This document shows positions 55,180 to 59,710 of a DNA stretch of 64,000 bases, in pieces. Numbering within the stretch: the stretch's first letter is position 1; each line of letters starts with the position of its first letter. The DNA comes from Treponema socranskii subsp. paredis ATCC 35535 (GTDB taxonomy: Bacteria; Spirochaetota; Spirochaetia; Treponematales; Treponemataceae). Below the pieces are notes generated by a model. That model ran no database searches. It worked only from the letters and a program-made list of their open reading frames with translations, and was not told the DNA's origin. Location: contig KE332516.1 in assembly GCA_000413015.1 (NCBI GenBank), forward strand, positions 372,001 to 436,000, given 5' to 3'. The translations under genes were made by a program, and so were the position numbers.

Positions 55180-55890
55180 ATGAAACGCTTTCTTTTTTTA
55201 CTCTGTGCGCTTCAAGCCCTGCTTTCCGCCGTATCTGCAGCGGATTATAACGATGAAACCGTTCTCGAAATCCGCGGCGTCGGCGTACCGTACGAAAAAG
55301 ACGATACGGTAGTTTTTACCGCCGATGCGAAATCGCGCTTTACCGGCATCGCGTTCGATTTTGAAGGATACAAAACGATTCATCCTTTCCGCATACATAC
55401 GATGCGCGACATGGACGGAAAGGCAAAAGGTTCGGTACTGTTTTATATTTTACATCGTCCCGAATCGACACGAAGCCTTTCATATCGCCTCGTCATCGAC
55501 GGATTGTGGACGACCGATCCCACAAACCCCGACAGCTACTACGACGAAAAAGAAGGCATCTCTCTTTCGCGCTTTACTTTCGCTTCCGATCTGCCGCAAA
55601 AGACCGCGTCCGCAACAACAAACGCGTCGTCTGAAAAAATCGTACGGTTTATCTGCCACGCAAATGCGCATCAAAAGATATATCTTGCAGGCTCGTTTAC
55701 GAACTGGGATCCGTGGATTTACGAAATGAAAGAAACGTCGCGCGGTTTGTACGAAATCGCACTGCCCCTGCCGTCCGGCACGCATTATTATAATTATTAT
55801 TCCGGAATGAATGCGCTCACCGACTCGACGAATCCGAATAAAGCGTACACAAAAGACGGTCGCGTCGCATCGGTCATCACGGTGCCGTAG
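55180..55890 (+). CDS. Secreted protein with two E-set/CBM48-like domains
   Basis: This 236-residue protein has a signal peptide (FLFLLCALQALLSAVSAA). Residues about 30-125 end in YRLVIDGLWTTDPTNPDSYY and residues about 150-236 carry IYLAGSFTNWDPW, LPSGTHYYNYYSG and DSTNPNKAYTKDGR. Both are the AMPK/isoamylase-type early set glycogen-binding fold (the WTxDPTNP element is typical). It probably binds glucans or a carbohydrate-like surface in the periplasm. GGAG lies three to four bases before ATG 55180. It diverges from the giant TPR gene. Confidence 0.75.
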   Translation: MKRFLFLLCALQALLSAVSAADYNDETVLEIRGVGVPYEKDDTVVFTADAKSRFTGIAFDFEGYKTIHPFRIHTMRDMDGKAKGSVLFYILHRPESTRSLSYRLVIDGLWTTDPTNPDSYYDEKEGISLSRFTFASDLPQKTASATTNASSEKIVRFICHANAHQKIYLAGSFTNWDPWIYEMKETSRGLYEIALPLPSGTHYYNYYSGMNALTDSTNPNKAYTKDGRVASVITVP

Positions 55891-56190
55891 TCGATACGGA
55901 AAACAGAGCAAGCGCATCGGAAACTGTATTCTCTAAAAAACAGCTCTTGCAACGTAAAAAACGGCTGCGCTTCCGGCAGCAGCCCTTCCGTTCGCCGCGG
56001 CTGACCGTAATCGGAATCGGACTGCGCAATCTCTTTTTACAAAGAGATTGCTTGCCATCGGTCAGAGCGGCTCGGCGGCAGTGCCGCTGCCTCGCGCTCC
56101 GCCTTTTTTATTATACACTTCTTTTTCCGTACATACATTTCCGACGTGGTTATCCTGATCCGGAAAATATAAAAACAAACACGCATCGTC
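55891..56190 (+). other. 300-base spacer with nested hairpins and terminator
   Basis: It begins with a sequence of the minor dispersed repeat (55915-55975). GGCTGC/GCAGCC, CTGACCG (56001-56007)/CGGTCAG (56059-56065) and inside it GCAATCTCTTT (56026-56036)/AAAGAGATTGC (56041-56051) form a nested structure. It is followed by a GC-rich hairpin (about 56064-56103) and a T-run (56104-56109), probably the terminator of the upstream gene. No gene is seen. Confidence 0.6.
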
Positions 56191-56191
56191 A

Positions 56192-56257
56192 ATCCAACAT
56201 TCGCTTAACCTGCATTTGCGGCTTGTTCGCAATGTCAGGTTGAAGCGGGTGTTATGT
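56192..56257 (-). other. attC site of cassette 3
   Basis: On the minus strand it runs ACATAAC...GTTGGAT (66 bases). The arms GCTTCAACCTG and CAGGTTAAGC pair with a single bulged C, as integron integrase substrates do. The cassette-3 stop codon lies within ACATAAC. Confidence 0.75.
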
Positions 56258-57031
56258 GTTAATTTTCAATTCCTGAAAACTTTTTTTATAAAATGAATTA
56301 AAATCTTTTACTTCATAAGAACCATATATTTTTATATAGTAATTAAAACTATTTATATATTCATCTCTTTTAAAATCTTTTATCTTATTTACACCCAGCA
56401 AATTTGATATGAATATTTCAAAACTCATAATAAATTCTTCAATGTCATTAATTTTTATATTTTTTAAAAATTCTTCATTTCTATACAATTCTAATACTTT
56501 TTCACTAAGATCTTTATCGCAAAGCAAAATAATTGTAATAAAATTAATTATATCAATATTTTCAAAAAGTAATTTCTCATATTCATTTGCTTTATTACTT
56601 CCCAAGTAGAATAATTCCTTAAGGCATCTAGAAGTTAATATAGGATTTTTTTTATAATATTCATTAATAAATGCTTCTTCTAAGTATTTACGGTTACTTT
56701 TCTTTCTCATTTTTGCAAATACAAAAACAGCCCCTTCTTTCTTTATTAAAAAATCAGAATACAGATACTCTGAAAACTTTTGAGAAAAACCAATTTCATC
56801 CAATTTTGAATCTATATATTTAAAATCTTTATCATTAATATTTAAACTCACATATAAATCAGAAAAGAATGCAACAAAATTTTGAAATGTAAATTGATTT
56901 TCATATTTTTGTTCTATATCGATTAAATTATATAAATCAAACGGGATATTTTTTATATCTTCCTCAGAGAAATATTCATAAAATTTCTCTGCATTATACA
57001 ATTCACTGGAAAAAATTTCACTTATGCCCAT
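56252..57031 (-). CDS. Cassette 3: unknown AT-rich protein
   Basis: The product has 259 residues, MGISEIFSSELYNAEKFYEY onwards, very rich in Ile, Lys, Asn, Phe and Glu and predicted largely helical. No signal peptide, membrane segment or known motif is recognised. GC content is far below that of the core genes, so it was acquired. The cassette spans roughly 57080-56198 and the stop lies in its attC. Its role, as with most cassettes, is unknown; no promoter is obvious, so expression may depend on transcription from upstream cassettes or ffh. Confidence 0.7.
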   Translation of the reverse strand: MGISEIFSSELYNAEKFYEYFSEEDIKNIPFDLYNLIDIEQKYENQFTFQNFVAFFSDLYVSLNINDKDFKYIDSKLDEIGFSQKFSEYLYSDFLIKKEGAVFVFAKMRKKSNRKYLEEAFINEYYKKNPILTSRCLKELFYLGSNKANEYEKLLFENIDIINFITIILLCDKDLSEKVLELYRNEEFLKNIKINDIEEFIMSFEIFISNLLGVNKIKDFKRDEYINSFNYYIKIYGSYEVKDFNSFYKKSFQELKINT

Positions 57032-57073
57032 ATATTTTCCTATAATTCAACATCGTGCATCAATGGTGCATCC

Positions 57074-57139
57074 GCATAACATTGTTTTAAACCGCAATGC
57101 AGCTCGACCGCGTTGTCGGCTTTGAAAAGCGTGTTAGAC
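57074..57139 (-). other. attC site of cassette 2
   Basis: On the minus strand it runs GTCTAAC...GTTATGC (66 bases). The left arm TAACACGCTTTTCAAAGCCG and the complement of the right arm TAACATTGTTTTAAACCGC match with an extra C, the expected bulge. The cassette-2 stop lies within GTCTAAC. Confidence 0.75.
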
Positions 57140-57901
57140 TTTATTTTGCCATAGAATAATTCTTTTTTCCGACAACTCTTGTTGAATAGTTTTTATTAAA
57201 GTCACTTTTTCAAAATTCCCATCATATTCATAAAAAGTAACTTTTCCATCTTCGTATTCAGCAAACAGGAATGTATTCTTATCTATACAATCCAAATAAT
57301 AAACTGAAGATGATATTTCTTTTAAATTTTTTCCATCATAATTGGATACATACAAAGCAATTTTATCTTTACTGTCGAGTTGCTTATCTCCGTTCGTATC
57401 TTCTTTTATTACTGCATAAATATTAAAATTATGTAAATTTTTATGTATTGCAGAAGTATTGATATCATTCGGTGAATTATCATTTGATAGTTGATATTTA
57501 TAAATAAATACTTTTGAAGGAAAAAGAAGTGTTTCCTGTTCATCCTTTACAAAAATAAAGTTTATGATTTTAGATGCAGAAGAACTTTTTTGAATTATAT
57601 TTGAAAGTTGTTTCGCTTCTAAATTTGATTTAGATAAATCATCAGACTTTATTGCAGATGTAGTTACGGAGAAAACATATACATCTTTTATTTTTTCCAG
57701 AAAATCAATTGATTCTGTTATTTTTGAGACAGCTTCTTCATCTTTAGAATCTATTATTTCAATATGAGCCGGTTGAGAACCACGAATTGGAAAGATTTCA
57801 GAGATTAGATTTACAAGCAAAGCAATAAGTCCAATAACAGCAGCAATAAATACTAATAAATAATCAACTTTCTTTATAATTTCAAAATTTATCTTTTTCA
57901 T
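57134..57901 (-). CDS. Cassette 2: membrane-anchored protein of unknown function
   Basis: This 255-residue protein has one N-terminal membrane segment (YLLVFIAAVIGLIALLVNLI, about residues 14-33), so it is anchored with a large outer domain. That domain contains a calcium-type or EF-hand-like DTNGDKQLDSKDKIALYV (about 165-182), often seen in bacterial dockerin/EF-hand loops, within a beta-rich context. AAGGAAAA precedes ATG 57901. Strongly AT-rich; codon use differs from ffh and the flagellar genes. Function unknown. Confidence 0.7.
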   Translation of the reverse strand: MKKINFEIIKKVDYLLVFIAAVIGLIALLVNLISEIFPIRGSQPAHIEIIDSKDEEAVSKITESIDFLEKIKDVYVFSVTTSAIKSDDLSKSNLEAKQLSNIIQKSSSASKIINFIFVKDEQETLLFPSKVFIYKYQLSNDNSPNDINTSAIHKNLHNFNIYAVIKEDTNGDKQLDSKDKIALYVSNYDGKNLKEISSSVYYLDCIDKNTFLFAEYEDGKVTFYEYDGNFEKVTLIKTIQQELSEKRIILWQNKV

Positions 57902-57932
57902 TTTTCCTTCAAGCCTCCAGTGCGTCATGTCC

Positions 57933-57990
57933 GTTCAACTACGCTGTTAAACCGAAAACCGGCTTAACCGGTTTGTCGGTTTTGTGCTGC
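57933..57990 (-). other. attC site of cassette 1
   Basis: On the minus strand it runs from GCAGCAC to GTTGAAC (58 bases). The arms AAACCGACAAACCGG and CCGGTTTTCGGTTT pair with one bulged C. The left core is degenerate, the right core fits GTTRRRY. The cassette-1 stop lies within the stem. Confidence 0.65.
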
Positions 57991-58188
57991 ATTATTATAG
58001 TCGCATTCACATTCTTTTGGATTTCCTCTTACATGGTAAGTTCGACAGATAAGCGGTCGATATTTATAAATTGAACAAATATTATCTTTATTAGGATTTT
58101 GTAATAAAATTAGATTATTATTAATTTGAGATACAAATTCTTGTGTGAAATTTGGTAAATCCGCTTTATATATCTCGCACCCCACCAC
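57964..58188 (-). CDS. Cassette 1: YkgJ-like cysteine-cluster fragment
   Basis: This is a 74-residue frame starting at GTG 58188, 14 bases after the cassette edge. ICSIYKYRPLICRTYHVRG followed by ECECDYN is the C-terminal half of YkgJ-family putative zinc/iron-chelating proteins; the usual N-terminal CxxCC part is absent, and a stop codon lies directly upstream in frame. So the cassette may have captured a fragment, or a short functional variant. AT-rich composition fits the other two cassettes. Confidence 0.5.
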   Translation of the reverse strand: MVGCEIYKADLPNFTQEFVSQINNNLILLQNPNKDNICSIYKYRPLICRTYHVRGNPKECECDYNNAAQNRQTG

Positions 58189-58195
58189 CCAGCCT

Positions 58196-58202
58196 GCCTA
58201 AC
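58196..58202 (-). other. Cassette junction core GTTAGGC
   Basis: The minus-strand GTTAGGC fits GTTRRRY and marks the upstream edge of the array, 18 bases after the ffh stop. The remaining parts of an attC or attI are not evident. Confidence 0.55.
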
Positions 58203-58220: not shown

Positions 58221-59591
58221 CTATCTTCCGAACCTCTTTGCGAGCGCTTCCATATCAGCGGCGTTTCCGCCGAGCTGATTCATAAACTGCGCCTGCATAC
58301 CGCGGTTTTTACTGAGCTTTTTCATCGCGAGCTTCGTCTTTTCAAACTGCTTTATCAATTTGTTGACGTCGGCGACCGAAGTCCCCGATCCTTTTGCGAT
58401 GCGCTTACGGCGTGCGGGTCCGATAATAAAATGGTTCGCCCGCTCTTTTTTAGTCATCGACAGGATAATCGCTTCCTGCTTTTTCATGCCGTCCGTATCG
58501 AAATCGCGCCCCTGCATCTGCTGTGCGATGCCCGGCATCATCTCCATAAGCTGCTGCATACTGCCCATTTTGCGCACTTGCCGAAACTGCGTGAGCATAT
58601 CGTCGAGCGTAAACTCGTTGCGCGCCATTTTCTTCTGCAGCTTTTCCGCTTCTTCGCGGTCGACCGTTTCCTGCGCCTTTTCGACGAGCGAAACGATATC
58701 GCCCATGCCGAGGATGCGGCTTGCGATGCGGTCGGGGTGAAAGACATCGAGGTCTTCGGTTTTTTCGCCCGTACCGATAAACAGAATGGGTTTGCCGGTC
58801 ATCGTTTTAAGCGAAAGCGCCGCACCGCCTCTGGCATCGGAATCGAATTTTGTTAAAATAACGCCTGAAAGCGAAAGCCGCTCATCGAACGTTTTTGCGA
58901 TGTCGACCGCGTTTTGACCGGTCATCGCGTCGGCGACGAGGATCGTTTCGTCGGGAGAAAGCGCTTTTTTAATATCGACGAGTTCGGCCATCATCGCTTC
59001 GTCTATCTGCAAGCGCCCCGCGGTATCGACGATAAGCGTATCGAGCGAATTTTTCCGCGCATAGTCGAGCGCATCTTTTGCAACGCGCACGGCGGATACG
59101 CCTTCTTCTTTAAATACCGGCACGCCGATTTTTTCGCCGAGCTGCGAAAGCTGTTCGACGGCGGCAGGGCGGACCAAATCGCACGCGGCCAGCAGCGGCT
59201 TCCGTCCTTCTTTTGCCAAGCGGTATGCGAGTTTATGCGCTGCGGTCGTTTTACCCGACCCCTGCAAACCGAGCAGCAAAATAACCGACTGCGTGTCCGG
59301 CCCTTTTAAATGCAGATCGGTTTTCGCGTCTCCGAGCATCGAAGCGAGTTTGTCGTAAATGATTTTTACGAATTGTTCGCCGGGATCGACGGCGCGAAGA
59401 ACTTTTTCGCCCTTCGCTTCTTCGATCGTCGAATTGACAAAGCGGCGAACGACGCGGAGATTGACGTCCGCTTCGAGGAGCGCCGTCTTAATGCGCTCGA
59501 CCGTATCTTCAATATTTTTTTCGGTGATCGTCGATTTTCCGCTCACCGTTTGGATAATCGATGAAAAGGTATTTGTTAATTTTTCAAGCAT
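58221..59591 (-). CDS. ffh: Signal recognition particle GTPase Ffh
   Basis: This 456-residue GTPase binds 4.5S RNA and signal sequences and delivers ribosomes to FtsY. N domain (about 1-85), G domain with GLQGSGKTTAAHKLA (G1), DTAGRLQIDEAMM (G3) and TKFDSDARGGAAL (G4/G5), and the methionine-rich M domain (MGSMQQLMEMMPGIAQQMQG, then GPARRKRIAKGSG, the RNA-binding helix) are all present. The chosen start 59591 sits six bases after TATAAT, so the message is probably leaderless; the extended frame upstream would include that promoter. Confidence 0.96.
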   Translation of the reverse strand: MLEKLTNTFSSIIQTVSGKSTITEKNIEDTVERIKTALLEADVNLRVVRRFVNSTIEEAKGEKVLRAVDPGEQFVKIIYDKLASMLGDAKTDLHLKGPDTQSVILLLGLQGSGKTTAAHKLAYRLAKEGRKPLLAACDLVRPAAVEQLSQLGEKIGVPVFKEEGVSAVRVAKDALDYARKNSLDTLIVDTAGRLQIDEAMMAELVDIKKALSPDETILVADAMTGQNAVDIAKTFDERLSLSGVILTKFDSDARGGAALSLKTMTGKPILFIGTGEKTEDLDVFHPDRIASRILGMGDIVSLVEKAQETVDREEAEKLQKKMARNEFTLDDMLTQFRQVRKMGSMQQLMEMMPGIAQQMQGRDFDTDGMKKQEAIILSMTKKERANHFIIGPARRKRIAKGSGTSVADVNKLIKQFEKTKLAMKKLSKNRGMQAQFMNQLGGNAADMEALAKRFGR

Positions 59592-59597
59592 AGGCAG

Positions 59598-59626
59598 ATT
59601 ATACCCGCCCCGCTTCTTTTTTGCAA
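59598..59626 (-). promoter_or_regulatory. Strong promoter directly at the ffh start
   Basis: On the minus strand TTGCAA (59626-59621), a 17-base spacer and TATAAT (59603-59598) are followed by six bases and ATG 59591. Confidence 0.65.
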
Positions 59627-59710
59627 TGCGGCGCGCGAACAAAGCACCTCACGGAACGAGCGCGATGGCACTGTGCTGCGGACGGAATGTCCGCACGTTC
59701 GCCCTCGCGC

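Follow-up and report, generated by a model that had tools for sequence, protein, structure and literature searches.

We read the three AT-rich open reading frames (ORFs) immediately downstream of ffh in Treponema socranskii subsp. paredis ATCC 35535 as integron cassettes that would have been inserted in trans by the resident integron integrase (IntI) at an attG-like site just after the ffh stop codon, and we assign this reading a probability of about 0.75. The cassettes lie in a 64,000-nucleotide stretch of contig KE332516.1, here called the window, and positions refer to the window unless a contig is named. The genome that contains the window is denoted G000, with C2 for the contig of the window and C1 for the contig that carries the complete integron.

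The array occupies positions 56192-58202 (G000:C2:428192-430202), between ffh on the minus strand and a convergent CBM48-like gene on the plus strand. Its GC content is 27.1%, compared to 49.8% for the window as a whole. All three ORFs are located on the minus strand in the order C, B and A from ffh, with lengths of 74, 264 and 259 amino acids, and all three stop codons are placed within attC sites, as the earlier note had proposed for three AT-rich ORFs on the same strand. The right cores that it listed, GTTGGAT, GTTATGC and GTTGAAC, and the GTTAGGC at the ffh edge can all be read in the sequence. The features are as follows.

55180..55890, plus strand: CBM48/AMPK-glycogen-binding-like gene, the other flank of the array (PF16561, 35.1 bits)
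55910..56155, no strand: dispersed palindromic repeat of ~240 bp, between the array and the CBM48 gene, in the flank outside the cassettes
56192..56257, minus strand: attC1, the last site, with R'' ACATAAC and R' GTTGGAT (76.8 bits, E 4.5e-22)
56252..57031, minus strand: ORF of cassette A, 259 aa, no counterpart in the sister genome G045 (ORF list)
57074..57139, minus strand: attC2, with R'' GTCTAAC and R' GTTATGC (63.9 bits, E 1.5e-17)
57134..57928, minus strand: ORF of cassette B, up to 264 aa, or 254 aa from the likelier start (ORF list)
57933..57992, minus strand: attC3, damaged left arm, with R' GTTGAAC and the inner hairpin kept and R'' missing (28.4 bits, E 3.4e-5)
57964..58188, minus strand: ORF of cassette C, 74 aa, GTG start, weak match to PF03692
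58196..58202, minus strand: 5' edge of the array, GTTAGGC with the G|TT junction, 18 bases past the ffh stop (read from the sequence)
58221..59642, minus strand: ffh, with the Pfam SRP54 domains, the co-directional housekeeping gene upstream of the array

The dispersed palindromic repeat is represented by 28 blastn pieces in G000 and is found in about 40 places in G045. It contains a terminator-like hairpin after cassette A (55980-55964, minus strand), while no terminator-like hairpin was found in the interval from ffh to cassette C.

Since no Rfam family matched in the window at gathering thresholds, an attC covariance model (R1) was built for this analysis. It was constructed only from ten short attC sites of the array next to the integrase gene on C1, hereafter the home array, and the evidence in the window is thus not circular. 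A simple scan for paired arms with AAC/GTT cores found the home sites but gave many false positives and missed attC3, and was used only to collect the home sites. The covariation in R1 comprises 12 pairs changed on both sides and gives a score of 0.381, compared to 0.149 for shuffles, while slid structures do not exceed 0.073. The model matched all three sites proposed in the earlier note, with E-values (given above, and referring to a search of 828 kb) down to 4.5e-22. In relatives without an intI above the cut-off, such as G017, G020 and G021, no match to R1 was obtained at E <= 0.01.

In attC1 and attC2, R''-L''-L'-R' forms a hairpin in which the AAC/GTT cores are complementary and one arm has an extra base, and the TAA stop codons at 56252-56254 and 57134-57136 form part of their R'' boxes. 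The bottom strand of attC1 folds far better than its shuffled versions (z -5.3), with one unpaired G and one unpaired T, while attC2 folds no better than shuffles (z -0.4) despite its high R1 score. The earlier description of paired arms with one extra base thus applies to these two sites, but not to attC3, in which only the inner stem folds, with one unpaired base and no complementary R'', and the third stop codon (TAA, 57964-57966) is placed within the loop. Stretches of G045 that match around attC3 are separated by approximately 218 and 174 additional bases, and the copy in the window has therefore probably been damaged by deletions. The R'' box is complementary to the 5' core of its own cassette at six of seven positions in cassette A and at five of seven in cassette B, and cassette C fails in this respect; most home cassettes match at all seven.

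The cassette proteins gave weak or no matches in PHROGs, PADLOC, Pfam and NCBIfam. The protein of cassette B contains one N-terminal membrane anchor and a DTNGDKQLD loop, and homologs were identified in 15 of 200 Treponema genomes, with 98% identity to the homolog in G045. In PADLOC, it matches 2TM effectors weakly (16.6 bits, E 0.001). The match of cassette C to PF03692 is below the Pfam cut-off and covers only profile positions 43-72. Together with the ~218 extra bases in the G045 copy, this suggests that the 74-residue ORF, which the earlier note had counted among its three cassette ORFs, is probably the truncated C-terminal part of a CxxCxxCC-type (YkgJ-like) domain. Single-sequence AlphaFold models of the A and B proteins had mean pLDDT values of 42 and 46, which was too poor for a fold search. 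No second copy of any of the three proteins was found in G000, and on these grounds we rejected a derivation of the array by copying of the present home cassettes to this place.

The complete integron is located at C1:191.7-214.9 kb and consists of an intact intI and an array of 14 attC sites. The intI gene (C1:213675-214913) has no internal stops and matches TIGR02249 with 481.9 bits (cut-off 265). Aligned to the Vibrio integron integrase 2a3v, the R, K, H, R, H and Y residues are all in place, and the protein carries an N-terminal extension of ~105 amino acids. Four tyrosine recombinases in G000 exceed the Pfam cut-off, and no intI fragments were found besides the home gene and the Xer-type recombinases, neither elsewhere in the genome nor at the ffh locus. 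The home array spans 22 kb downstream of intI, with 30% GC. In nearly every home cassette, all seven positions of the R'' box are complementary to the R' core before it, as expected for cassettes inserted by IntI; two long sites also follow this rule after correction of a one-base shift in their listed register. Four of the home sites are ~151-157 nt long (C1:198484-198640, 200013-200163, 202217-202371 and 205113-205264) and have the same insertion of ~86 nt in the terminal loop, a pattern reminiscent of a small element spreading from one attC hairpin to another. The first home cassette (C1:212538-213410) starts with an ORF resembling Dam-type adenine methylases, with two more ORFs before the first attC as judged by eye, and is possibly a multi-gene restriction-modification cassette.

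A CALIN comprises cassettes with a minimum of two attC sites, lacks an intI in its vicinity and contains fewer cassettes than a complete integron (IntegronFinder 2.0, PMC9024848). The window array has three sites close together, two of them strong, and the sole intI is on the other contig. The earlier classification as a CALIN without integrase is thus correct for the locus, but the intact intI and the home array elsewhere in the genome, revealed by the intI search that the earlier note had suggested, make the window array a satellite of this resident integron and not an orphan. It is one of about twelve such satellites in the genome.

The relationship to the home array is closest for the outer part of the window array. 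The identity to the best home site is 92% for attC1 and 85% for attC2, which is within the range of the home sites among themselves, while the intact attC sites of every other satellite show 65-79% identity to home sites. Cassette A begins with the 16-mer GTTATGCGGATGCACC, and the sole other copy in G000 is at the start of the first home cassette (C1:213487). The home-like identities and the shared start point to a recent recruitment of the outer cassettes from the pool of the home array.

The nearest named records by Ffh are T. socranskii ATCC 35536 (L195) and Treponema sp. Marseille-Q4130 (L196, hereafter Q4130), both of which are 99% identical, and the window therefore belongs to the T. socranskii group; T. 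denticola, which the earlier note mentioned for its chromosomal integron, is not among the nearest relatives. As that note had predicted, the content between ffh and the CBM48 gene varies among strains, and the three ORFs are not always fixed together. Four alleles were identified in G000, G045, Q4130 and ATCC 35536. The allele in G000 contains C, B and A followed by the dispersed repeat. In G045, cassette C is present with the ~218 and 174 additional bases mentioned above and cassette B at 97% nucleotide identity, and the ffh-side junction GTTAGGC is retained inside a contiguous match. Past cassette B there is a segment of ~1.1 kb up to the CBM48 gene, known by its coordinates alone, which does not contain cassette A. 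The similarity between G000 and G045 ends nine bases beyond the attC2 core, within a leader that is common to an unrelated home cassette. Q4130 has no cassettes, and the matches to ffh and the CBM48 gene are only 5 bp apart. Since the ~300 bp repeat-bearing stretch adjoining the cassettes is also absent from Q4130, the exact target site cannot be read from this genome. In the type strain ATCC 35536 (L195, 6420-11038), a 4.6-kb insert without attC occupies the gap, which thus looks like an insertion hotspot. The products of the insert are a DpdF-like helicase of 1069 amino acids and a sigma-like protein with an MzaA match, and the insert is possibly a defence module. Cassettes accordingly vary as units between close relatives, in that A is missing from G045 where C and B are kept, and the Q4130 locus is empty. 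In rumen Treponema metagenome-assembled genomes of two other species, attC-like sites were found ~4.4 kb downstream of ffh (L222:10711-10770, 48.1 bits; L238:10731-10791, 35.5 bits).

A census of attC sites in the whole 2.74-Mb genome, at E-values of about 0.01 or better, identified 24 sites outside the home array at 12 loci including the window, with another three borderline sites. The eleven further satellites contain one to four attC each, many with mutated GTT cores, as if decaying, and are located as follows.

C1: 5.5, 150, 304-306, 468-470, 562, 1030-1033, 1231 and 1531-1533 kb
C2: 476-478, 615 and 700-702 kb

The satellites occupy islands of roughly 27-37% GC and show no clear bias in orientation relative to replication, as judged by eye from the GC skew. 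Dispersed attC sites are also present in G045, Q4130 and ATCC 35536. In the satellite at C1:467.6-470.2 kb, the middle cassettes are kept in Q4130 at 95% identity, and the match starts precisely at the first attC, on its R' core (C1:470117; Q4130 C11:65891), with other attC-bearing DNA upstream, which indicates that cassette replacement at the crossover point occurs in satellites. Second intI fragments were found near other attC clusters in G045 (C1:2224365), G049 (C1:2500216) and G050, and ATCC 35536 has fragments only. The gene is apparently split between frames in Q4130 and G050; further coordinates of the split or fragmentary copies are G040:C13:161153-162101 and G050:C1:27707-28647 and 214504.

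In the mechanism that we propose, the bottom strand of the attC of a cassette would fold into a hairpin, which IntI would recombine at G|TT with a chromosomal target 18 bases past the ffh stop, which would give the inserted cassette the same orientation as ffh. Subsequent cassettes would be added or swapped at an attC already there, with cassette A as the latest. The TTGGAT of the attC1 R' box would then derive from the original target site, and the candidate empty site is predicted to read ...AAAAAGTTGTTGGATTGACG... The absence of a terminator-like site between ffh and cassette C suggests that transcription from ffh probably reads through into the array. Insertion in trans is consistent with the identification of the attC sites by an independent model, the intact intI and home array, and the home-like attC1, attC2 and 16-mer of the window. 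The sister alleles point in the same direction, with an empty locus in Q4130, a different third segment joined at attC2 in G045 and an unrelated insert in ATCC 35536, as do the lack of an intI fragment at the locus and the cassette replacement at an attC core in another satellite. Against it, no exact empty target is seen at the Q4130 locus, and the R''/R' rule is followed incompletely by cassettes A and B and does not hold for cassette C.

The array could instead be the relic of a second chromosomal integron at the ffh locus that has lost its own intI, in accordance with the view of CALINs as degraded integrons. Three genomes (G045, G049 and G050) have intI fragments next to second arrays, and ATCC 35536 has fragments only, which demonstrates that such decay happens in the T. 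socranskii group. However, G000 contains no intI fragment besides the home gene and the Xer-type recombinases, cassettes are missing at this locus in Q4130, and the distance from the ffh stop to the array is 18 bases, which leaves no room for an intI/attI platform, so that we consider this origin improbable. Slightly less probable still is the import of a ready-made block of cassettes, either carried by a mobile element or derived from the home array of a different strain, in which homologous or illegitimate recombination would have acted at ffh in place of IntI. Cassettes B and C are 97-100% alike in G000 and G045, while the flanking CBM48 gene is 91% identical, which would fit recent exchange, and ATCC 35536 illustrates that the locus accepts unrelated inserts. 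However, the array is bounded by G|TT cores, and G000 and G045 begin to differ at an attC core, within the common nine-base leader, as site-specific exchange predicts. That the ORFs are unrelated to integrons, with AT-rich genes of the ordinary kind and fortuitous hairpins or terminators, as the silence of Rfam, the weak attC3 and the poor fold of attC2 might suggest, is refuted by the E-values from the independent model and its strong covariation, the stop codons in R'' boxes, the same type of attC in an intact home integron and the polymorphism at the level of cassettes.

CALINs may originate by loss of the integrase or by insertion in trans at secondary sites. Here, a single genome combines a home integron whose integrase is intact with about twelve satellites that differ in their degree of divergence, and its sisters display empty, filled and rearranged states, which makes the insertion model directly testable within one group. 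The traffic of integron cassettes in oral treponemes thus extends beyond the integron locus. More tentatively, and with the odds in our view clearly against it, the T. socranskii group might possess a distributed integron, in which one integrase would serve a home array and about a dozen dispersed satellites, each of which would acquire, lose and swap cassettes in place, so that cassettes would obtain durable sites of expression behind housekeeping genes like ffh and would not depend on one attI promoter.

The window array resembles the CALINs of PMC9024848 in the clustering of attC sites without a local intI. It differs in that G000 also holds an intact intI and a home array with near-identical attC sites, and it is therefore not simply a degraded integron. 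Chromosomal integrons with one array per genome have been described in T. denticola, T. vincentii, T. succinifaciens and T. brennaborense (PMC3607928). The home integron of G000 is similar to these, with an intI of the Treponema type that is transcribed toward the array, AT-rich cassettes and attC sites of ~63-68 nt, but this member of the T. socranskii group has about twelve satellites in addition. Cassette ORFs related to T. socranskii proteins have been amplified from saliva (PMC4909258), and we found no description of the T. socranskii integron locus itself in the open-access literature. In integrons generally, the attC bottom strand is recombined in its folded form by IntI at G|TT; the partner is mostly attI, and secondary sites can also serve (PMC11023631, PMC10127599). 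Off-target activity has been reported for IntI1 (PMC10127599). Insertion of cassettes at secondary attG sites is attributed to Loot et al. 2024 in the papers that cite it (PMC11023631, PMC12444791, PMC12901181). As portrayed there, such insertions resemble the window cassettes, which are located outside the integron and bounded by G|TT cores, whereas that work was experimental and used other integrases, while the event proposed here is deduced from natural genomes with a target that is only reconstructed. In Xanthomonas, roughly half of the genomes contain satellite CALINs that are separate from the home integron, at chromosomal positions that recur (PMC12444791). That system comprises seven loci across many species, whereas about a dozen are present here in one 2.74-Mb genome with an intact integrase. 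CALINs, Treponema integrons and Xanthomonas satellites are thus already known, and the more interesting part is the density of satellites in a single small genome together with the exchange of cassettes in place.
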